Origin: a virus
IMG/VR virus record: IMGVR_UViG_3300021185_002047
Span: 1-21,341 of that record
Strand: one strand, 5' to 3'
DNA length: 21,341 bases
This document shows, piece by piece, positions 3,192-21,341 of the stretch (the stretch's first letter is position 1; each line of letters starts with the position of its first letter). Both the position numbers and the translations under genes were made by a program. Under the pieces are notes generated by a model. The model was not told the DNA's origin. It made no database searches and worked only from the letters and a program-made list of their open reading frames with translations.

Positions 3192-4304
3192 ATGGCAAAA
3201 CAAGTAATTAATATTGGGACAACCGCAAACGATGGAACAGGAGATCCGTTAAGAACAGCCTTTGACAAGGTCAATGATAACTTTAATGAATTGTACACAG
3301 ATGATACAAACGATGTATCCTCAATAGTAGCTACTGCTCCAATAGCTAGAAACAACGCTACAGGAATTGTTACAATCTCTTTAAATGATGCGGGAATTGT
3401 TACAGATAAAATAGCAGATGATGCAGTTACGGCAGATAAACTTGCAAACTCAATTAATACAGAGATAGCAGCAAATACAGCAAAAGTCACAAATGCAACA
3501 CATACAGGAGACGTGACAGGATCAACAGCTTTGACAATTACAGATGATGCAGTAACAATTTCAAAGATTGCAGATGCTGCCATAGTTACAGAAGCAGAGG
3601 GAATTGGTTCTAATGATAACGACACTACTTTACCTACTTCAGCGGCTGTAAAAGATTATGTAGACGGACAAGGTATTGGAGCACTTACAGCTACTGATGG
3701 AGGTTTTGTTGTAGGAAATGGTTCAGCGTTTATAGTAGAAAGTGGATCAACTGCTAGAGATTCAATAGGACTAGGTACTAGTGGTCATATACAATTTCAT
3801 TGTTTAGGGGTTGGACAAGCTGCATCAACAAATAACGGTCAGATAGATGCAACAACTTTATATGCTAGTGGTAATATAGGAAAGGATTCGGGCGATTATA
3901 TAACTTGGACAACCGACACGCAACTTGATTTTTATGTCAATGGAAGTAATGAAATGAGGCTAGAAGCGGATGGTGATTTGCACGTTGATGGAGATGTTAT
4001 CGCTGCTAGTACAACTGTATCTTCCGATGAGAAACTTAAAAAAGACATTAAACCAATCGAAGATGCTTTAGAAATAGTAGGTGCTATTAAAGGAGTAGAT
4101 TTTACTTGGAAAAAAGATGACAAGAGATCTAGTGGAGTAATTGCACAAGATATACAATCTGTTATGCCTCATTTAGTAAAAGAAGTAAAAGAATTAGATT
4201 CAGACGATAGTCACTTAGCTGTTAATTACGATGGTCTTATTGGAGTATTAATTGAAGCAGTAAAAGAATTAAAAGCAGAAGTAGAAACTTTAAAAAACAA
4301 ATAA
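3192..4304 (+). CDS. Tail fibre protein with C-terminal S74 intramolecular chaperone
   Basis: A 370-residue protein. The N-terminus INIGTTANDGTGDPLRTAFD...NDNFNELY is a common tail-fibre start in phages and probably attaches the fibre to the virion. The middle (~40-200) is Ala/Thr/Asp-rich with repeated motifs such as ITDDAVTISKIAD, typical of trimeric fibre shafts. Residues ~277-370 form an S74 (endosialidase-type) chaperone: SDEKLKKDIKPIEDALE, then GVIAQDIQSVMPHLV, then a C-terminal coiled coil. In this family the domain drives trimerisation and cuts itself off at the Ser-Asp pair, here S278-D279. It recognises the host surface in the tail. It ends in a 1-base overlap with the next gene. 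The stretch has no CCGG, unlike flanking genes, suggesting a different origin. Confidence 0.9.
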   Translation: MAKQVINIGTTANDGTGDPLRTAFDKVNDNFNELYTDDTNDVSSIVATAPIARNNATGIVTISLNDAGIVTDKIADDAVTADKLANSINTEIAANTAKVTNATHTGDVTGSTALTITDDAVTISKIADAAIVTEAEGIGSNDNDTTLPTSAAVKDYVDGQGIGALTATDGGFVVGNGSAFIVESGSTARDSIGLGTSGHIQFHCLGVGQAASTNNGQIDATTLYASGNIGKDSGDYITWTTDTQLDFYVNGSNEMRLEADGDLHVDGDVIAASTTVSSDEKLKKDIKPIEDALEIVGAIKGVDFTWKKDDKRSSGVIAQDIQSVMPHLVKEVKELDSDDSHLAVNYDGLIGVLIEAVKELKAEVETLKNK

Positions 4305-7249: not shown

Positions 7250-7309
7250 TTTGCGGGTATATCTCTTTTAGATTAGTTGAGTATTTAATAATTGAAACAA
7301 TAAAACCTC

Positions 7310-7729
7310 TTGTCAGAAAAGAAAAAAATAAAGGATACAGCGGTAGGTAAATTTCTTTTAAATAAAATTCCTAACGTAGTGGGAGCGATAGCAGGAAATA
7401 CAGCTGTAGGAAGCGTATTACAAGCTATTATAGGCGGTTCTGATATGTCCGAAGAGGATAAGACCATAGCTCTAAAAAAGCTCGATCTAGAGAGGGCTGA
7501 GATAGATGGAACAACTAGACGATGGGTTGCAGATGCTAGATCCGGAAGTTGGTTAGCTTCTAATGTACGTCCATTAGTATTAATATTTCTTACAATTAGC
7601 TATGTAGTAGGATGGTATCTTAGCTATCCACTTGACTCAATTACCGGATTGCTCTCGATTGTCATAGGTGGCTATTTTGGTTCTAGAGGAGTTGAGAAAG
7701 TATTCGGTAATAAACTACACGATAAATAG
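7310..7729 (+). CDS. Holin of the 3TM type, TTG start
   Basis: A 139-residue protein. The start is TTG at 7310: an in-frame TAA lies just upstream and the next in-frame ATG is at about residue 46, which would remove much of the conserved region. A basic N-terminus leads to Gly/Ala-rich hydrophobic residues (VVGAIAGNTAVGSVLQAIIG). Residues ~65-90 (RRWVADARSGSWLASNVRP) match the conserved segment of the Holin_3TMs family, followed by two clear transmembrane helices (PLVLIFLTISYVVGWYL and ITGLLSIVIGGYFGSRG). It would permeabilise the inner membrane for the M15 endolysin. The preceding AATAAAAC is an A-rich Bacteroidota-type start context. Confidence 0.8.
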   Translation: MSEKKKIKDTAVGKFLLNKIPNVVGAIAGNTAVGSVLQAIIGGSDMSEEDKTIALKKLDLERAEIDGTTRRWVADARSGSWLASNVRPLVLIFLTISYVVGWYLSYPLDSITGLLSIVIGGYFGSRGVEKVFGNKLHDK

Positions 7730-7778
7730 AACAGAAGGGTATTTTAAAGCTTTCTGCTCAATCTTTTTATATTTTTAG

Positions 7779-7786
7779 TATATTCG
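7779..7786 (+). promoter_or_regulatory. Promoter -7 box (TATATTCG) before the replication genes
   Basis: TATATTCG fits the Bacteroidota -7 box and is the same as the box at 11944. There is no clear TTTG at the expected upstream site, only TTTCTG. It lies 110 bases before the gene at 7889, in the 159-base gap between the lysis and replication genes. Confidence 0.45.
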
Positions 7787-7792
7787 TACAGT

Positions 7793-7809
7793 AGACTTTT
7801 TAAAAGTCT
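7793..7809 (+). repeat. 17-bp near-perfect palindrome
   Basis: AGACTTTT-T-AAAAGTCT, two 8-base arms around a single central T. It begins where transcription from the promoter at 7779 would start, so it could be an operator for a dimeric regulator or a hairpin in the RNA leader. There is no T-run directly after it, so it is not a standard terminator. Confidence 0.6.
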
Positions 7810-7818
7810 CTTAAAACG

Positions 7819-7887
7819 CTTGTAATATATATACTATATATCTATATATATACAAGATATATAATATAAATATATATATATATACAT
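7819..7887 (+). repeat. AT-only tract with inverted repeat; possible DNA-unwinding element
   Basis: From 7824 nearly all bases are alternating T and A, interrupted by only a few C or G. An inverted repeat CTTGTA (7819-7824) ... TACAAG (7851-7856) with TA-rich arms frames the first half, and (TA)n runs to 7883. Such tracts melt easily and can form cruciforms, as at replication origins. It lies between the lysis and replication genes. No consensus DnaA box (TTATNCACA) was seen nearby, so the origin role is inference. Confidence 0.5.
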
Positions 7888-7888
7888 T

Positions 7889-8143
7889 ATGGAATTAGAT
7901 GAGCAAATAAGAAAGATTGTAAGCTATAAAACTTGGAGCGTAAAACGTAAAACTGATACGTTGTTAGAAATGGATGCAGAAATGTACACAAATTTAGGAA
8001 TAGAATCCACTAAGACTGAAAAGAAAAATGTAAAAGCTATAAGCCGAAAAATATATAGAGCTATAAGTTTAATAAACCCACTAGATGGCTATATATTAGA
8101 AGCTCATATGAACGAGAAAGATCTTACAGATTTAACGAAGTAA
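7889..8143 (+). CDS. Small unknown protein before NinG
   Basis: An 84-residue, charged and mostly helical protein (MELDEQIRKIVSYKTWSVKR at the start, KKNVKAISRKIYRAI in the middle). No domain is recognised. It directly follows the AT-rich tract and shares an A with the NinG start (TAATG), so it is the first gene of the early/replication operon. The basic helical middle could bind DNA, but this is speculation. Confidence 0.65.
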   Translation: MELDEQIRKIVSYKTWSVKRKTDTLLEMDAEMYTNLGIESTKTEKKNVKAISRKIYRAISLINPLDGYILEAHMNEKDLTDLTK

Positions 8144-8541
8144 TGAGATGTAAAAGTAGAAAGTGTATTGTTAAAAAACTTGACACAATATTTAGTCAAT
8201 ATATCCGTTTGCGTAAATCTAAAAGAGGTATTTCAGAATGTTATACTTGTGGGATAAAAGGTCATTGGAAAACTTTACAATGTGGACACTTTATGTCTCG
8301 TAAACACTATTCAACTAGATGGGATGAGCTTAATTGTCAAGTTCAATGTTATAAATGTAATATACACGGATACGGAGAGCAATTTAGATTTGGTCAACGA
8401 TTATCTAAAGAGTACGGAACAGATACACCGGATATTTTAGAGAGTAAATGCAGAAATATTTCAAAGTTTTCTAATTTGGATCTATTAGAAAAAATAGATT
8501 ATTACAAAAGTATAGTTGAACCTTTGTTGTTAAAGAATTAA
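8143..8541 (+). CDS. ninG: NinG/Rap-like recombination nuclease
   Basis: A 132-residue protein matching the lambda NinG (Rap) family, a structure-specific recombination endonuclease that acts on branched DNA. Residues 10-28 (VKKLDTIFSQYIRLRKS) are typical of the family, followed by a zinc-binding region with C33, C36 (CYTC), C47 and H49 (LQCGHF), then MSRKHYSTRWDELN and C69, C72 (QCYKCN) and HGYGEQFRFG, as in HNH-related folds. In lambda, Rap promotes recombination between short homologies and resolves branched intermediates. Here it is upstream of SSB-like and helicase genes, fitting a replication-recombination module. Confidence 0.88.
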   Translation: MRCKSRKCIVKKLDTIFSQYIRLRKSKRGISECYTCGIKGHWKTLQCGHFMSRKHYSTRWDELNCQVQCYKCNIHGYGEQFRFGQRLSKEYGTDTPDILESKCRNISKFSNLDLLEKIDYYKSIVEPLLLKN

Positions 8542-8553
8542 ATCATATATTTG
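8523..8553 (+). promoter_or_regulatory. Consensus Bacteroidota promoter inside the end of ninG
   Basis: TTTG at 8523-8526, 19 bases, then TATATTTG at 8546-8553: an exact match to the Bacteroidota vegetative consensus (TTTG, 19 bases, TAnnTTTG). It is the best promoter in the window. The -33 box lies in the last codons of ninG and transcription would begin near 8560, heading directly into a terminator 45-75 bases later. Confidence 0.7.
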
Positions 8554-8559
8554 ATCGTT

Positions 8560-8636
8560 CAATAGTTCGATATCATTCTTGCTTCACCGCTTGGATGTCA
8601 TAAAAGGGGAGTTTTAGTCAGACTCCTCTTTTTTTA
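8560..8636 (+). ncRNA. Candidate small RNA (~75 nt) with own promoter and terminator
   Basis: This ~75-base segment lies between the consensus promoter at 8523-8553 and a strong terminator at 8606-8635. It holds no start codon followed by a useful open frame. A 6-bp stem GATATC (8569-8574) / GATGTC (8594-8599), with one wobble, closes a 19-base C/T-rich loop, then the terminator hairpin follows. A GTTCGAT sequence recalls a tRNA T-loop, but the rest does not fold as a tRNA. The next gene has its own promoter (8653), so this looks like an independent short transcript. Target unknown. Confidence 0.5.
8606..8635 (+). terminator. Rho-independent terminator after ninG / small RNA
   Basis: Stem GGGGAGT (8606-8612) / ACTCCTC (8622-8628) with one wobble, a 9-base loop, four A before the stem and seven T after it (8629-8635). 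It ends both the ninG transcript and the short RNA proposed to start near 8560. Confidence 0.85.
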
Positions 8637-8652
8637 TTAACATTATTTTTCT

Positions 8653-8660
8653 TATCTTAG
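8653..8660 (+). promoter_or_regulatory. Promoter -7 box (TATCTTAG) before the SSB-like gene
   Basis: TATCTTAG is identical to the box at 10399 and fits TAnnTTTG at most positions. A T-run ends the previous terminator around the -33 place. Transcription would start near 8667, 15 bases before the ATG at 8682. Confidence 0.5.
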
Positions 8661-8681
8661 CTTAAACTTTAAAACTTATAT

Positions 8682-9110
8682 ATGAAAGGAACTATTGTAA
8701 CAATTGACAAAGCCGGATCTTATAATGATATGGAGATCAACGAAGTAACGTTTAAACACGGTGAAAAAATCAAATTTTTTATTAAAAAGACTGATCGAAA
8801 TCCAAATGGAGATTTAGTTAATAACTTAATCCTTAATGGGGAATCTGTAAACGGTCATACTTTTGAGTATGAATTAACTCCTACCGGAAATGGTAAGATT
8901 ATTAGAGAAAATAACTTTACTGCTAAACCAAAATTTAACGGTGGAGGCAAAAGCTATGGAGTAAAAGATGAGAAAACTCAAAACTCTATATTGATGCAAG
9001 TGTGTTTTAAAGAATGTATGCAGGCATTTGCAAAAGAAAATGAAGAAGTGGTGCTTCCAAAGACCTTGGAATATTTTAACTATCTTCGTAACGAACTAAA
9101 TAATTTATAA
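8682..9110 (+). CDS. Putative single-stranded-DNA-binding-like protein
   Basis: A 142-residue protein starting MKGTIVTIDKAGSYNDMEIN. The first ~90 residues look beta-rich like an OB fold (KGTIVTIDKAG, KIKFFIKKT, GHTFEYELTPTGNGKII); then comes a basic flexible segment (AKPKFNGGGKSYGVKD) and a C-terminal helical part (QNSILMQVCFKECMQAFAKE). I recall similar proteins described as ssDNA-binding in Bacteroidota phages, but no diagnostic residue exists, so this rests on fold appearance and on position before the helicase. Two bases separate it from the next gene, with which it shares a terminator at 9421. Confidence 0.5.
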   Translation: MKGTIVTIDKAGSYNDMEINEVTFKHGEKIKFFIKKTDRNPNGDLVNNLILNGESVNGHTFEYELTPTGNGKIIRENNFTAKPKFNGGGKSYGVKDEKTQNSILMQVCFKECMQAFAKENEEVVLPKTLEYFNYLRNELNNL

Positions 9111-9111
9111 T

Positions 9112-9402
9112 ATGTCACAATTTAAATATGAAAGCGAGTTTGTGGATCCGATTTATGTAAAAAATCCAAGTCCTAAATTTAAAGCAGGAGTTGCAAACTT
9201 TGATGCAAAGCGTGAGGATTTAATCGCCTATTTGCAAAACCTAAATGGAGAGTATGTTAATTTTCAAATTACTAGATCTCCGGATAAGACAGATGACTAT
9301 GGGTTAAAGAAATTAGTATTGACTAGAACTTGGCGAACTGAGTTAAATGAGGTCGCTGCTAGTACACATATGCCCGACAGAGAGGAAGCGAGTCCTTTCT
9401 AG
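9112..9402 (+). CDS. Small protein with acidic, PF-ending tail
   Basis: A 96-residue protein. The body has probable strands (NGEYVNFQITRSPDK, GLKKLVLTRTWRTELNE) and the end MPDREEASPF resembles the acidic, PF-terminated tip by which bacterial SSB recruits replication enzymes. The family is not recognised. It is cotranscribed with the SSB-like gene at 8682 and precedes the helicase, so a role as SSB or SSB-partner is possible (inference). Confidence 0.65.
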   Translation: MSQFKYESEFVDPIYVKNPSPKFKAGVANFDAKREDLIAYLQNLNGEYVNFQITRSPDKTDDYGLKKLVLTRTWRTELNEVAASTHMPDREEASPF

Positions 9403-9420: not shown

Positions 9421-9455
9421 AAAAGAGTAGCCGTAAAATGTTACTCTTTTTTTTT
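9421..9455 (+). terminator. Rho-independent terminator before the helicase gene
   Basis: A 9-bp stem AAAAGAGTA (9421-9429) / TACTCTTTT (9442-9450) with a 12-base loop, followed by T to 9455 (nine T in all from 9447). It ends the 8682-9402 transcript. The T-run touches the next promoter box. Confidence 0.85.
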
Positions 9456-15007: not shown

Positions 15008-15552
15008 AATACTTAATTCAAAATGTACCTCAAAGAGATGTGTCAATTCTTTTAGATCAATTAAAGGATGTTGGTTTATATGTCGACAAAAACAAAAAAC
15101 CTCTTGAGTCTTTTATAGAAACTTTAAAACTAGCAAAAGATGAAAGTGCTTTGTATATGGAGGATGACATTATATTATCAAAAGATTTTATTGATGACAC
15201 AAGTTCATTTATAAATATGAATAAAAATAATGTAATTAACTTTTGGACATTAAAGAAGAGCATAAAGGAAACAACGTTAATGCTCTCCTCAAGTTTTATG
15301 TCTAATTTATGCGTATACTTTCCAAATCATCACATTAAAGGATTAATAGATTTTTACAATAAAGGATGGAGTAGAATTAAAGAACACCCTACAGGAATGG
15401 ATTTAATGGTTAGGGATTATTTAGTTGCTACGAAAACAAAGTATTGGTTATATCAACCTAGCTTAGTGCAACACAAAAAAATTGTTTCTGCAATTAATCC
15501 AAAAAGATCTAAGTACAGACAATCAATAACATTTAAAGATGAAAATATATAA
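15004..15552 (+). CDS. Glycosyltransferase-like protein
   Basis: A 182-residue protein. The segment ALYMEDDIILSKDFIDDT (~49-66) is the nucleotide-sugar and metal site of GT-A glycosyltransferases (acidic EDD motif). The N-terminus KYLIQNVPQRDVSILLDQL and the end LYQPSLVQHKKIVS fit small phage glycosyltransferases, including the QPSLVQH element seen in this group. It would transfer a sugar to DNA, a protein or a host glycan; the acceptor is not visible. It overlaps the methyltransferase by ATGA and the PAPS-reductase-like gene by 14 bases. Confidence 0.75.
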   Translation: MKYLIQNVPQRDVSILLDQLKDVGLYVDKNKKPLESFIETLKLAKDESALYMEDDIILSKDFIDDTSSFINMNKNNVINFWTLKKSIKETTLMLSSSFMSNLCVYFPNHHIKGLIDFYNKGWSRIKEHPTGMDLMVRDYLVATKTKYWLYQPSLVQHKKIVSAINPKRSKYRQSITFKDENI

Positions 15553-16687
15553 AAAAAATAATGTATATGAGGAGTCGTTGAATAGGATACGTTTCCTATA
15601 CGATGAGTTTGATGAGGTCGTAGTGGGTTACTCGGGTGGAAAAGATTCGACTGTGACCCTTAGATTAGCTGTAGAGGTTGCTAGAGAGAAAGATAAACTA
15701 CCGGTTAAAGCATTATTTATAGATCAAGAAGCAGAGTGGGGTGCAGTAATAGAACATATGAGAGAAGTGCAAGCGGATCCGGATATAGAATTATTATGGT
15801 ATCAAATACCTTTTGACATTTATAATGCAAGTTCTAATTTGAAACAATGGATTACAGCTTGGGAAGATGGAGTAGAAACTATGAGACCTTATGAGCCTAA
15901 TTCTATAAGGGAAAACAAATATGGTACAACTAGCTTTTATGATTTATTTAATAAGATAATTGAAATAGATTTTCCGGAGAATACAATATTGTTAGGAGGA
16001 GTCAGATCTGAAGAGAGTCCTAGACGGCACGTGGCTATGACACAAGATGCAACGTACAAGTACATTACTTGGGGTAAGAAACTTAATCCGAGTAAAGGTC
16101 AATATACATTTTATCCTATATATGATTGGAGCTATACCGATATTTGGAAAGCTATACACGATAAGCAATGGATATATACTAAGGTTTATGATTATCAATA
16201 TATGTATGGAGTTTCTATTAGAGCTATGAGGGTGTCTAATTTACATCACGAAACTGCTATTGAGACTTTATTTTATTTACAAGAAATTGAGAGAGACACT
16301 TGGACGGCTTTAACAAAAAGAATGTCCGGAATAGATACAGCCGGAAAACTATCGAAGGATGATTACTTTGTAAAAGAGTTGCCATTTATGTTTAGATCTT
16401 GGGAGGAGTATCGAGATTTTCTGACACAAAACCTTGTAAAAAACGATAAGCTAAGAAAGAAGTTTGAAAAGAAATGGATTGCATACGATGAAAAATATAA
16501 AGATATGCTTTTGAGAGACAAGCTTATCAAAGCAGAAATTAATACAATTTTAGCAAACGATATTGATTTAAACAAATTGCGTAACTTTACAGAGACACCG
16601 GAGATGGAGGACTTTAGAAGATGGTCTCGAGGTGAGGAATTAAAATACACTAGAATTAAAAACAGATACATACCTTATGAGTCTTGA
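15539..16687 (+). CDS. PAPS-reductase-like PP-loop ATPase (IbrA-type)
   Basis: A 382-residue protein of the adenine-nucleotide alpha-hydrolase type. The PP-loop signature VGYSGGKDSTVTL (29-41) is exact for PAPS reductase/ATP-sulfurylase-like enzymes, and ALFIDQEAEWGAV plus LLGGVRSEESPRRH follow in the expected order. Length and pairing with a ParB-like gene match IbrA/DUF3440 proteins, not true assimilatory PAPS reductase. Such proteins activate a substrate with ATP; related DndC enzymes act in DNA phosphorothioation, but no dnd partners are seen. It overlaps the next gene (IbrB-like) by 11 bases, so the two very probably work together. Confidence 0.85.
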   Translation: MKIYKKNNVYEESLNRIRFLYDEFDEVVVGYSGGKDSTVTLRLAVEVAREKDKLPVKALFIDQEAEWGAVIEHMREVQADPDIELLWYQIPFDIYNASSNLKQWITAWEDGVETMRPYEPNSIRENKYGTTSFYDLFNKIIEIDFPENTILLGGVRSEESPRRHVAMTQDATYKYITWGKKLNPSKGQYTFYPIYDWSYTDIWKAIHDKQWIYTKVYDYQYMYGVSIRAMRVSNLHHETAIETLFYLQEIERDTWTALTKRMSGIDTAGKLSKDDYFVKELPFMFRSWEEYRDFLTQNLVKNDKLRKKFEKKWIAYDEKYKDMLLRDKLIKAEINTILANDIDLNKLRNFTETPEMEDFRRWSRGEELKYTRIKNRYIPYES

Positions 16688-17342
16688 AGAAAACATAAAT
16701 ATGGAATACGAATTAGCAGAAGATAAAATAAATTTTATTGAAGGTATTCAAGATCTTTTGCATAATTTATCCCCTCTAGGAAGCCAACCTGTTAACAGAG
16801 TAAAATGGGTAGACATAGACAAAGTACAAGCAAACGATTATAATCCTAACAGCGTAGCCAAAACAGAGATGAAGTTATTGTACACATCGATAGCACACGA
16901 TGGTTATACTCAACCCGTTGTAACGGTTTATGACAAAAAAAAGGATAAATACGTTATAATAGATGGATTCCATAGGTATTTTACTTGTAAAAGCTATAAG
17001 GACATACTTGAAAGGAACCACGGTAAGCTTCCGGTAGTAGTTATCGAGAAAGACATAAACGATCGTATGGCTTCTACAATTAGACACAATAGAGCAAGAG
17101 GGAAGCATTCTATATCTGGAATGAGTAACATAGTATTTGAGATGTTAGATAACGGATGGCAAGATGCAGAGATCTTAGAGGAGCTTGGTATGGAGTCCGA
17201 AGAGTTGATAAGGTTGAAACACATTACCGGATTCAGTAAACTATTTGCTGACACAGACTATAAAAAATCTTGGGAACATAAAAAGCAATTACAAATCAAA
17301 AAGAAGTACAAAGATGAAAATCCAAAAGAAAAAATTATCTAG
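16677..17342 (+). CDS. ParB/IbrB-like protein, first of two
   Basis: A 221-residue protein with a ParB/Srx-type N-terminal domain: VKWVDIDKVQANDYNPNSV (~42-60), GYTQPVVTVY (~77-85), VIIDGFHRYF (93-102) and a basic TIRHNRARGKHSISGM motif. In ParB proteins GxxR-type motifs bind CTP; here the GFHR element is the equivalent. It follows the PAPS-reductase-like gene with an 11-base overlap, as in the ibrA-ibrB pair. A DNA-contact or nuclease-like role for the pair is inferred. It overlaps a second ParB-like gene by 29 bases. Confidence 0.82.
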   Translation: MSLEENINMEYELAEDKINFIEGIQDLLHNLSPLGSQPVNRVKWVDIDKVQANDYNPNSVAKTEMKLLYTSIAHDGYTQPVVTVYDKKKDKYVIIDGFHRYFTCKSYKDILERNHGKLPVVVIEKDINDRMASTIRHNRARGKHSISGMSNIVFEMLDNGWQDAEILEELGMESEELIRLKHITGFSKLFADTDYKKSWEHKKQLQIKKKYKDENPKEKII

Positions 17343-17856
17343 TATAAAACCATATTGGAGAAACGCTAGGAAAAATCAACGTACGGTTGAAGCTCTAAAG
17401 CAATCTATACAAAAGTATGGATTTAATCAACCTCTAGTTGTTGACACAAAAAATGTCATAATAACCGGACACGCTAGATACAAAGCTTTAATGCAATTAG
17501 GTTATGAAGAGATCGATTGCGTAGTAGCAGATCTTAGTGAGCAAAAAGCTAAAGAGTACCGAATAGCCGACAACAAAACTCACGAGCTTACTATATGGGA
17601 TAACGATGAGCTAATGATCGAACTTAGAGAGATTGGTAACAATATAGATATGCAAGGATACTTCCAAAACATAAACCTAGATTCTTGGCTAGATGATTCA
17701 GTAGGATATAACATTACCAATACCTCTCAAGAGGACTTTGAGAAACAACAACATCAAATGGACAATAAGTTTAAAGATGAGGAGAGAGCAGAGAAAGCAA
17801 TTGTAACTTGCCCACATTGTTTTGAAGAGTTTGAATTAGATAAAAAAGACATATAA
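17314..17856 (+). CDS. ParB-like protein, second copy, with CxxC end
   Basis: A 180-residue protein. I chose ATG 17314 over an upstream ATG at 17245, because the longer start overlaps the first ParB-like gene by ~98 bases and reads as junk there. The domain is MKIQKKKLSSIKPYWRNARK, then GFNQPLVVDTKNVIITGHAR (36-55), then EYRIADNKTHELTIWD. It matches the ParB N-terminal fold found near phage terminases. The C-terminal 20 residues TCPHCFEEFELDKKDI carry one CxxC, half of a zinc finger. It differs clearly from the upstream ParB-like protein and is not a recent duplicate. It abuts the small terminase gene. Confidence 0.82.
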   Translation: MKIQKKKLSSIKPYWRNARKNQRTVEALKQSIQKYGFNQPLVVDTKNVIITGHARYKALMQLGYEEIDCVVADLSEQKAKEYRIADNKTHELTIWDNDELMIELREIGNNIDMQGYFQNINLDSWLDDSVGYNITNTSQEDFEKQQHQMDNKFKDEERAEKAIVTCPHCFEEFELDKKDI

Positions 17857-18242
17857 TGAGTGACAAAAGTGACACTATAAAAAAAGAGGATAAAGAACCG
17901 GCATTCGATAAGATTAAAACAAGTATGCTAGAAGCTCTAGAAAACTCTTTAGGAATTGTTTCAATAGCTTGTAGAAAAATCGGGATATCTAGACAAACTC
18001 ATTATAGATGGCAAAAAGAGGATGCAGATTATGATAAAGCTTCTAAGGAGATTATAGAGGCTACAATCGATTTTGTTGAGTCTAAGCTATTCGATAATAT
18101 CTCAGATAAAAAAGAAGCTTCTATTATGTTTTATTTAAAGTCTAAGGCAAAGCATAGGGGATATGTAGAAAGACAAGAGCTTGATATGGGAACTAATAAT
18201 CATTTCCGAGTAGAAATCATAGATGAAGAAACTACAGACTAA
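17856..18242 (+). CDS. Small terminase subunit (TerS-like)
   Basis: A 128-residue DNA-binding protein. The helix-turn-helix SIACRKIGISRQTHYRWQKE (~36-55) is typical of phage small terminase subunits, followed by DKASKEIIEATIDFVESKLF and ASIMFYLKSKAKHRGYVERQ, as in Bacteroidota phage TerS. It recognises the packaging start site (pac/cos) on phage DNA and loads the large subunit. It shares TAATG with the ParB-like gene and overlaps TerL by 20 bases. Confidence 0.85.
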   Translation: MSDKSDTIKKEDKEPAFDKIKTSMLEALENSLGIVSIACRKIGISRQTHYRWQKEDADYDKASKEIIEATIDFVESKLFDNISDKKEASIMFYLKSKAKHRGYVERQELDMGTNNHFRVEIIDEETTD

Positions 18243-19383
18243 TGTAGTATTTAGACACCTGGAGCAAACTGATAAACGAATTATCATCGAGCAAGGTGGT
18301 ACTAGATCCGGCAAAACTTATAACATATTGCTATGGATTATATTTGGGTATGCTTTAAAGAACACAAAGAAAACTATATCAATAGCTAGAAAGACATATC
18401 CATCTCTTAGGACTTCTGCTATGAGAGATTTTATTGAGATACTTAGATCCTACGAATTGTACGATGAGACGTTACACAATAAGTCAAGTGCTGAATATAG
18501 GTTAAATGGAAACCTTATTGAATTTATATCTTTAGATCAACCGCAAAAGGTACGTGGTAGAAAACGGGATTTGCTATTTATTAATGAGGCTAATGAGTTG
18601 CATTGGGAAGATTGGCAACAATTAGTATTCCGTACAAAATATCGCATTATAATAGACTACAACCCTAGTGACGAGTTTCATTGGATATATGAAAAGGTAA
18701 AGACTAGAGAAGATTCTGAGTTTCATATCACTACTTATAAAAATAATCCATTCTTAGATCCGGAGATCAAAAAAGAGATCCTCAGACTAAAAGACACAGA
18801 TGAACAATATTGGAACATATATGGATTAGGTCAAGTTGGCGTTGGTAAAAGTTTAATCTTTAGATCAAACCTTGTAGACACTATACCATTAGATGCAGAG
18901 TTTTTAAGCTATGGTATGGACTTTGGATATACAAATGACCCTACGACATTAATTGGAGTCTACAGAAAGGATATGAGCCTTTACTTCGAGGAGTTAATAT
19001 ATCGAACCGGATTAACCAATAGAGATATTGCAAAGCAATTAGAGTCATTAGGAATCAATCGAAGGTCTGAGATCTTTGCAGATTCGGCAGAACCGAAAAG
19101 CATAGATGAGATTTATAAGTTTGGATGGAATATTAAACCGGCAACTAAAGGAAGAGATTCAATTAACATCGGGATCGATATGCTAAAGAGGTACACATTA
19201 TTTATCACTAAGAATAGTACAAACACAATAAAGGAATTTAGAAACTACAAGTGGAAAGAAGACAAGAATGGTAATGTACTTAATACACCGGTTGATGCCT
19301 TTAATCATAGTTTAGACGCATTGAGATACGCAACCTATAACAAGCTATCAAGACCGAATTACGGCAAGTATGCTATTCGGTAG
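18223..19383 (+). CDS. Terminase large subunit (TerL)
   Basis: A 386-residue packaging motor. The ATPase has Walker A GGTRSGKT (25-32) and Walker B DLLFINEAN (116-124). The RNase H-like nuclease follows, with the acidic residues in YGMDFGYTNDPT (D233), IFADSAEP (D287) and FNHSLDALRYA (D365). The protein drives DNA into the procapsid through the portal and cuts it. It is full length, although slightly short for the PBSX-type TerL. It ends within the minus-strand gene at 19373-19525 (11-base convergent overlap). Portal genes are 17 kb upstream in this window, an unusual separation. Confidence 0.95.
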   Translation: MKKLQTNVVFRHLEQTDKRIIIEQGGTRSGKTYNILLWIIFGYALKNTKKTISIARKTYPSLRTSAMRDFIEILRSYELYDETLHNKSSAEYRLNGNLIEFISLDQPQKVRGRKRDLLFINEANELHWEDWQQLVFRTKYRIIIDYNPSDEFHWIYEKVKTREDSEFHITTYKNNPFLDPEIKKEILRLKDTDEQYWNIYGLGQVGVGKSLIFRSNLVDTIPLDAEFLSYGMDFGYTNDPTTLIGVYRKDMSLYFEELIYRTGLTNRDIAKQLESLGINRRSEIFADSAEPKSIDEIYKFGWNIKPATKGRDSINIGIDMLKRYTLFITKNSTNTIKEFRNYKWKEDKNGNVLNTPVDAFNHSLDALRYATYNKLSRPNYGKYAIR

Positions 19384-20228: not shown

Positions 20229-20261
20229 AAATCTTTTTTTTTGTTTTGATTTAGTTAATTT

Positions 20262-20323: not shown

Positions 20324-20992
20324 ATGAAAGTACAAGTTAAAATTCCCACAAGCTTAAACGAGTTATCGTTGTCTCAATATTCTAAATACATTGATATAGT
20401 AAATCAATTTGAAAAAATGAAGGATGAATCTTCAAATCCGGAGATCTTTTATCAATTAAAAACTCTTGAGATCTTTTGTGGTGTAAATTATGAGGATGGA
20501 TTAAAGCTTAGGGTACAAGATGTAAAAAGAATAGTTTCTCAAATAGAAAAGTTACTATCAGAGAAGCCGGATCTAATAACAAAGTTTACAATAGGTGATA
20601 CTACATTTGGCTTTATACCTAAGCTTGACGATATGACCTTTGGAGAGTACATAGATCTTGACACAAACTTAGGGGATTGGAATAATATGCATAAAGCATA
20701 TGCGGTTCTTTACAGACCTATAAAAAAAGAGGATGGGGATAAGTACCTTATAGAAGAGTACAGAGGAGATGTCTATTATGAGGCTATGAAACATACCCCA
20801 CTAGATGTAGTTTTTAGTTCTTTGGTTTTTTTTTATCATTTAGGGATCGACTTGTCGAACGCTATGACGAAATATTTGGAGGAGTCGACACCGGAGGTTT
20901 TGGAGCAGCAGAAACTTTTGGAAAAAAATGGGGTTGGTATCAATCGGTCTATACGCTTGCTCAAGGAGACATTACAAAATATGACAATATAA
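20324..20992 (+). CDS. Tail assembly chaperone, frame-0 product
   Basis: A 222-residue, mostly helical protein with the layout of phage tail assembly chaperones: N-terminal KIPTSLNELSLSQYSKYIDI, then TFGFIPKLDDMTFGEYIDLD, then NMHKAYAVLYRPIKKEDG (~125-145), a common signature in Bacteroidota phages. The C-terminal part ~168-222 overlaps a second open frame (-1) and uses codons such as TTG, TCG and CAG more than its surroundings, as expected for dual coding. These chaperones bind the tape measure protein during tail assembly. The frame-0 product ends at TAA 20990-20992; a frameshift at 20826-20834 would extend it. Confidence 0.75.
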   Translation: MKVQVKIPTSLNELSLSQYSKYIDIVNQFEKMKDESSNPEIFYQLKTLEIFCGVNYEDGLKLRVQDVKRIVSQIEKLLSEKPDLITKFTIGDTTFGFIPKLDDMTFGEYIDLDTNLGDWNNMHKAYAVLYRPIKKEDGDKYLIEEYRGDVYYEAMKHTPLDVVFSSLVFFYHLGIDLSNAMTKYLEESTPEVLEQQKLLEKNGVGINRSIRLLKETLQNMTI

Positions 20993-21087
20993 CAAAAGAG
21001 AATTTAAACACTTGCTTACTAGCATTAGCATTCGAAAAGGAAAAGAACGAACTAGAAGCGAAACAAATTAAAAACAATTTCAAATGA
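20818..21087 (+). CDS. Tail chaperone -1 frame extension (start-less, frameshift product)
   Basis: The -1 frame relative to 20324 is open from the TAG at 20815-20817 to TGA at 21085-21087 and has no ATG, GTG or TTG codon at all. The translation resembles the second part of tail assembly chaperones: RYDEIFGGVDTGGFGAAETF, GKKWGWYQSVYTLAQGDITK, LNTCLLALAFEKEKNELEAK. Without a start codon it is best explained as the C-terminus of a fused protein made by -1 frameshifting at the T-run, giving about 254 residues. This matches the G/GT arrangement in lambda and many tailed phages. It ends in ATGA with the next tail gene. Confidence 0.75.
   Translation, partial: FFGFFLSFRDRLVERYDEIFGGVDTGGFGAAETFGKKWGWYQSVYTLAQGDITKYDNITKENLNTCLLALAFEKEKNELEAKQIKNNFK
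20826..20834 (+). promoter_or_regulatory. Slippery site for -1 ribosomal frameshift (nine T)
   Basis: Nine T in a row, read in frame 0 as GTT TTT TTT TAT, contain a T_TTT_TTT heptamer at 20827-20833. A -1 shift keeps both tRNA anticodons paired. The run lies 10 bases after the -1 frame's last stop. A second candidate, A_AAA_AAT at 20923-20929, would also join the two frames. No clear stem downstream was determined. Confidence 0.6.
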
Positions 21088-21341
21088 GCGGTACAGGAGC
21101 AAGAGGATTTTATTTAATTACTGACACATTAAAAGACGAACTCGTAGCAGACGAATCAGTAAAGACAGTAACATATGGAGATATTACTCAAATAGATCTA
21201 AGTAAGCAAACCATATTCCCTTTGTCTCATATAATGGTAAACCAAGTCTCTCAACAAGAGAGAACCTTGAGCTTTAATGTAACCGTTATGACTATGGATA
21301 TTGTAGATGAATCTAAAGATGCTACAACTGACATATATCTC
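21084..21341 (+). CDS. Tail protein, N-terminal part (3' end outside window)
   Basis: From ATG 21084 (overlapping the chaperone stop as ATGA) an open frame of 86 codons runs off the window. It starts MSGTGARGFYLITDTLKDEL and contains TVTYGDITQIDLSKQTIFPL and SHIMVNQVSQQERTLSF, a combination I recall from tail or neck proteins of Bacteroidota phages. The place after a tail assembly chaperone supports a tail or tape-measure-neighbour role. No further domain can be judged from the visible part. Confidence 0.65.
   Translation, partial: MSGTGARGFYLITDTLKDELVADESVKTVTYGDITQIDLSKQTIFPLSHIMVNQVSQQERTLSFNVTVMTMDIVDESKDATTDIYL

Follow-up and report, generated by a model that had tools for sequence, protein, structure and literature searches.

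A single tail-module gene of the marine bacterial virus analysed here very probably gives rise to two protein forms by programmed -1 recoding at a run of nine T residues (T9), whichever machine slips. The two proteins would share residues 1 to about 170. The majority of the product would be read in frame 0 throughout and end in a C-terminal extension of 52 residues, whereas the minority would shift by -1 at the T9 run and end instead in an 84-residue helical domain with the motif FGKKWGWY, terminating 95 nt past the frame-0 stop. By analogy with lambda gpG/gpGT, the two may be the short and the extended version of a tail assembly chaperone, made in a fixed ratio. The slip could be made by the ribosome or by RNA polymerase, and both could contribute at a single T9 run. 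Observed directly were the architecture and its constancy in 389 loci, the selection on both frames, the absence in most clusters of a start codon that could serve the -1 domain, and the conserved coupling of its stop to the start of the next gene.

The window, i.e. the whole stretch of DNA that was analysed, corresponds to one complete virus record in IMG/VR, 21,341 bases long. Its distal part contains the large terminase gene (18223-19383), small genes, a 222-aa ORF (20324-20992) and a partial gene from position 21084. The features of the locus, in window positions, are:

20324-20992, + strand: frame-0 ORF of 222 aa, which encodes the putative tail assembly chaperone in its short form, from ATG (20324) to TAA (20990-20992); phrog_32199.
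20826-20834, + strand: T9 run, the proposed recoding site, exactly nine bases, including the in-phase heptamer T_TTT_TTT (20827-20833).
20818-21087, + strand: -1 frame from stop to stop, 89 aa, following TAG (20815-20817) and ending with TGA (21085-21087), with no ATG, GTG or TTG.
20834-20992, + strand: dual-coded stretch, i.e. the frame-0 C-terminal extension and the first part of the -1 domain, with selection in both frames.
20993-21087, + strand: 95 nt past the frame-0 stop, coding in the -1 frame only, with a normal third-position pattern in that frame.
20841-20843, + strand: TAG in the +1 frame, two codons past the T9 run, by which the third frame is shut.
21084-21341, + strand: next tail-module gene, phrog_30964 (function unknown), extending off the contig end.

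The -1 TGA and the ATG of the downstream gene overlap as ATGA (21084-21087). An earlier, sequence-only reading had described a -1 frame open to its TGA with none of the three start codons, and its coordinates were right to the base. The overlap with frame 0 of about 160 nt and the continuation beyond the frame-0 stop were likewise as claimed, and the heptamer that it had placed near the beginning of the -1 frame is present, in phase and inside the T9 run. Two further T9 runs occur in the window (9447-9455 and 20234-20242), both intergenic, and the run at 20826 is the sole intragenic one. Elsewhere the window encodes a 2OG-Fe(II) oxygenase (PF13640; 5516-6157) beside probable tail-fibre genes, an endosialidase-type S74 chaperone protein (3192-4304) among those same genes, and, directly upstream of the terminase genes, a PAPS reductase-like protein and, after it, two proteins with ParB N-terminal domains (15539-17856).

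Purifying selection acts on both frames of the overlap and holds the -1 domain more tightly than frame 0. When the frame-0 amino acids of the window were held fixed, the -1 frame was open in 1% of synonymous redraws. Over 58 relatives the joint probability of -1 openness given the frame-0 amino acids was about 10^-143, and 10^-22.7 when these were reduced to 10 clusters at 50% identity. As controls, the +1 frame was open in 0 of 58 relatives, as was the -1 frame in an upstream stretch of the same length (0/58). Conversely, the openness of frame 0 given the -1 amino acids had a probability of about 10^-107. The wobble base of frame 0 was changed in 0.40 of comparisons upstream, against 0.16 in the overlap, and that of the -1 frame in 0.32 past the frame-0 stop, against 0.19 in the overlap. 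Within the overlap the ratio of nonsynonymous to silent rates (dN/dS-like) was 0.28 (0.25-0.32) for the -1 frame, which matches the level of ordinary genes here (0.26-0.27), and 0.52 (0.45-0.63) for frame 0. With selection on both, it follows that both frames are in use.

Relatives were sought in IMG/VR, in one genome per prokaryote species and in a phage collection. Both parts were detected in 388 loci, which together with the window make 389; grouping by protein identity gave 97 clusters at the 80% level and 18 at the 50% level. Members include Bacteroidetes MAG contigs, a locus of Galbibacter pacificus that resembles a prophage, and the Nonlabens phages P12024S and P12024L, and a sequenced Galbibacter isolate (L174) is among the loci. 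Three loci (L173, L175 and L176) lie on MAG contigs labelled Epsilonproteobacteria, Euryarchaeota and Pseudooceanicola, and are probably virus contigs binned into the wrong organism.

The second part is in the -1 frame in all 388 related loci, as it is in the window, and T_TTT_TTT is in phase in 389/389. The T-run of the relatives has nine bases in 350 loci and ten in 38; a length of seven or eight occurs in none. A second scan of DNA by amino-acid context, in which each Phe could be TTC and the preceding codon could have any third base, gave at least 119 sites, and all of those listed have nine Ts. The length of the frame-0 extension is on the other hand variable, from 7 codons through 16-25 in the P12024 and L314 groups up to 87, and the median distance from heptamer to frame-0 stop is 55 codons in the family. 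The 7-codon value comes from two loci on one contig (L024, 3001-3522; L084, 2519-3040), in which a stop within the usually open extension cuts frame 0 short, 7 codons past the T-run, with the -1 domain left intact; this suggests that the frame-0 extension can be lost, or else a base error. The ATGA overlap between the -1 stop and the next start is found in 245 of 379 loci and in 58 of 93 clusters, so that the ribosomes reaching the next gene are those on the -1 track. A comparison of homologues had been named beforehand as a check, and the T-run (9 or 10) and the -1 relation of the two parts are kept in all loci. The programmed frameshift proposed from the window is, as recoding, strongly supported by the constant -1 relation, by a T-run of at least nine, by the purifying selection on both frames and by a conservation of the -1 domain equal to that of an ordinary gene.

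As regards the machine that slips, we favour, by a narrow margin, -1 ribosomal slippage on U_UUU_UUU, to which we would give about an even chance. T_TTT_TTT stands in perfect phase at the overlap, and tail-chaperone frameshifts are the known use of such an architecture in long-tailed phages, those demonstrated being ribosomal (PMC5009743); frameshifting in chaperone genes has been measured at 6-7% (PMC3711429). A conserved stem-loop or pseudoknot downstream of the site was not found over 58 relatives (mean folding z about 0, with upstream controls folding slightly better), nor was an upstream element, seen as a block of lowered synonymous variation before the run. RNA stimulators are not obligatory for ribosomal -1 slippage. 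The window itself has a hairpin just 3' of the slip site (20834-20934, z -2.4) which is not common to the family and is possibly a lineage-specific stimulator.

What speaks against the ribosome, besides these two negative results for the family, is that the run always has at least nine bases although the heptamer requires seven, and the length of the run therefore makes slippage by RNA polymerase a serious alternative. The polymerase would add one U on the T9 run, the -1 domain would be read in the normal frame, and the same two proteins would result, their ratio being fixed in the mRNA pool by the share of transcripts with ten U. A run of nine A or T whose length is conserved in homologues has been regarded as very likely to indicate transcriptional slippage, and a U-run is used in this way in Shigella mxiE (Baranov et al. 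2005, PMC1088944). The present loci show both properties, the run being nine or longer in 389/389 and never seven or eight. Further, the final Phe codon is TTC in none of the 97 clusters, whereas TTC makes up 21% of the Phe codons upstream (P about 2e-10), and that change from TTT to TTC would be silent in both frames. Three loci with a base other than T after the two Phe codons (L173, L309 and L317) have TTT before them and so still reach nine (Fisher p 0.002 at 80% clustering), albeit L309 and L317 possibly represent one shared event and the preceding TTT could retain three aromatic residues for reasons of the protein. The lack of a conserved RNA stimulator also agrees with the polymerase, as does the +1 frame, which in 93 of 97 clusters meets a stop no more than 3 codons on; this early closure may, however, be a by-product of dual coding. 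Against these points stands the precedent that the tail-chaperone shifts known from experiment are ribosomal (PMC5009743). Nine Ts would also arise from the heptamer together with a preceding aliphatic residue (NTT) and the conserved Leu (-1 frame) and Tyr or Trp (frame 0) that follow. Since these protein constraints flanking the heptamer partly explain the nine-T rule, we keep ribosomal slippage as the first choice. The earlier claim of a frameshift at the ribosome is accordingly sustained for the recoding as such, the invariant T9 run making transcriptional slippage almost as likely as the ribosomal slippage that it assumed.

We consider it probable that the protein is a tail assembly chaperone. 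Because neither sequence nor fold gave a match, we infer this role from the tail module and the architecture. The AlphaFold2 model of the frame-0 protein has a mean pLDDT of 83.6 and is compact over residues 1 to about 185, with a C-terminal extension of low confidence; the -1 domain is predicted to be mainly helical. The PHROGs family of the frame-0 protein is of unknown function. Neither the frame-0 nor the -1 part had a match in Pfam or among PDB sequences, and comparison with solved folds (Foldseek) gave no meaningful match for either; it was mostly over helical ends and so rules nothing out. With hhalign, similarity to lambda G/T, HK97 gp13 and P2 E was undetectable. To our knowledge, recognised chaperone families seldom match each other. 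In BFVD the relatives of the frame-0 protein are all unnamed or uncharacterised. Weak and non-significant BFVD rows were named 'tail assembly chaperone' (E 0.29). The models of the frame-0 and the -1 part both found matches in a few BFVD proteins (e.g. A0A516L5A8, 260 aa), as natural in-frame fusions would give, but those of the -1 part are weak. The conserved extension announced by the sequence-only reading was confirmed as conserved, to the degree of an ordinary gene; its putative chaperone identity comes from genome context and architecture, and profile, PDB and hhalign comparison gave no match to known chaperones, a profile search with the -1 frame having been named beforehand as a check.

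The tail module is best seen in the relative L167, in which the genes run in the order terminase, chaperone with -1 domain, two small and two larger genes, tape measure, protease and probable capsid, with the portal further downstream. The chaperone (1892-2536) and the tape measure gene (7308-9152, by PHROGs) are on one strand with four genes between them, so that the position upstream of the tape measure gene is found but the direct adjacency of lambda and P2 is not. The order in this region of L167 (1892-14497) is unusual, with tail genes between the terminase and head genes.

It is unlikely, though conceivable, that the recoding is real and the protein some other tail or head factor needed in two forms. 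The failure of profile, fold and hhalign comparisons to match a characterised chaperone, the PHROG of unknown function and the non-adjacent tape measure gene would all be in line with such a factor. Against it, the phage is long-tailed with a recognisable tape measure gene, and the gene is a small one, early in the tail module, with the architecture of a -1 extension. A tail assembly chaperone remains the preferred identity.

The -1 frame is entered at the T-run itself. In 60 of 97 clusters, ATG, GTG and TTG are all absent between the nearest preceding -1 stop and codon 35 beyond the site, the conservation of the -1 protein starts at the run (FFLSFRDR, with F1, F2, L3 and F5 invariant), and synonymous variation drops from about 0.4 to 0.00 precisely at the three codons of the run. 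With no start codon and conservation from the run onward, internal initiation offers no explanation. That the -1 part is a separate gene, translated from an internal start or by ribosomes that re-initiate past the frame-0 stop, is thus highly improbable. It could appeal to gene 39 of P12024S (L161, 3028-3195), which is annotated from an ATG of its own in the -1 frame, and a homologue with a separately started second part had been named as evidence against a frameshift. Such an annotation does exist, yet the -1 frame of that phage is open and conserved upstream of the ATG to the T9 run, and the start therefore looks artefactual; gene 39 is probably a mis-annotated recoding product. The same holds beyond P12024S, the -1 protein being conserved upstream of any such start, and with a separate gene the T-run would serve nothing.

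A homopolymer error in sequencing or assembly that divides one gene, to which such runs are prone and for which a window consisting of one metagenomic contig might be suspected, is refuted by the homologues, with a chance close to nil, as identical phase and run recur in 389 loci from many projects, in the Galbibacter isolate and in two phage isolates, and as frame 0, which a single-frame gene would let decay past the run, is instead open and under selection.

Programmed -1 recoding at the T9 run works like lambda G/GT and P2 E/E+E', with a dual-coded stretch about ten times that of either. Shared with lambda are an upstream ORF with a -1 extension reached via a slippery heptamer, a common N-terminus and a tape measure gene downstream. 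In lambda, GGGAAAG lies 15 nt before the G stop and GT joins almost the whole of G to T; in P2, which has a T-rich slippery site (T_TTT_TTG), a -1 frame and a tail operon in common with the present system, the heptamer is 18 nt from the stop. Here the distance is 156 nt, in keeping with the earlier statement that most of a domain is dual coded, and the products consequently differ by an exchange of C-terminal ends and not by the lengthening of one of them. Thus, unlike in lambda, from which the proteins also differ by the lack of detectable sequence similarity, the C-termini are alternatives. A further difference from lambda and P2 is that the run never has fewer than nine Ts and that the RNA stimulator is not conserved. 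Slippery sites of P2-like phages are T6G, T7G or T7C (PMC3931495), whereas every run here has 9 or 10 T.

Genes 38/39 of the Nonlabens phages P12024S and P12024L, the only matching isolates in the phage collection, are direct homologues with the same T9 run and -1 frame; they differ in a shorter frame-0 extension (25 codons) and are annotated as two hypothetical proteins. With genes known for transcriptional slippage (Thermus dnaX with A9, Shigella mxiE with a U-run, and IS transposases) the locus has in common a conserved run of nine identical A or T at the frame junction (PMC1088944); slippage by the polymerase is here a candidate, and in the known chaperone genes the shift is ribosomal. In the openly accessible papers searched, no report was found of recoding of this sort in flavobacterial or Bacteroidetes phages.

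For hundreds of marine phages, a 'hypothetical' gene pair is hereby given a probable role, together with the domain of 84 residues that it had lacked. Gene finders based on start codons overlook the -1 domain in the window and in many relatives, and give it a late start in P12024S. The idea of lambda G/GT, a short slip close to a stop, is widened to include a pair of dual-coded C-termini that are alternatives to each other. Somewhat short of an even chance, and to be held tentatively, is the full picture of a large, mainly marine flavobacterial siphovirus family that would set its tail-chaperone ratio by polymerase slippage on T9 and draw mutually exclusive C-terminal domains from the same ~160 bases. 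With the invariant T9 run and the isolates P12024S and P12024L, it becomes testable whether a phage sets its chaperone ratio by slippage of the polymerase and not of the ribosome.
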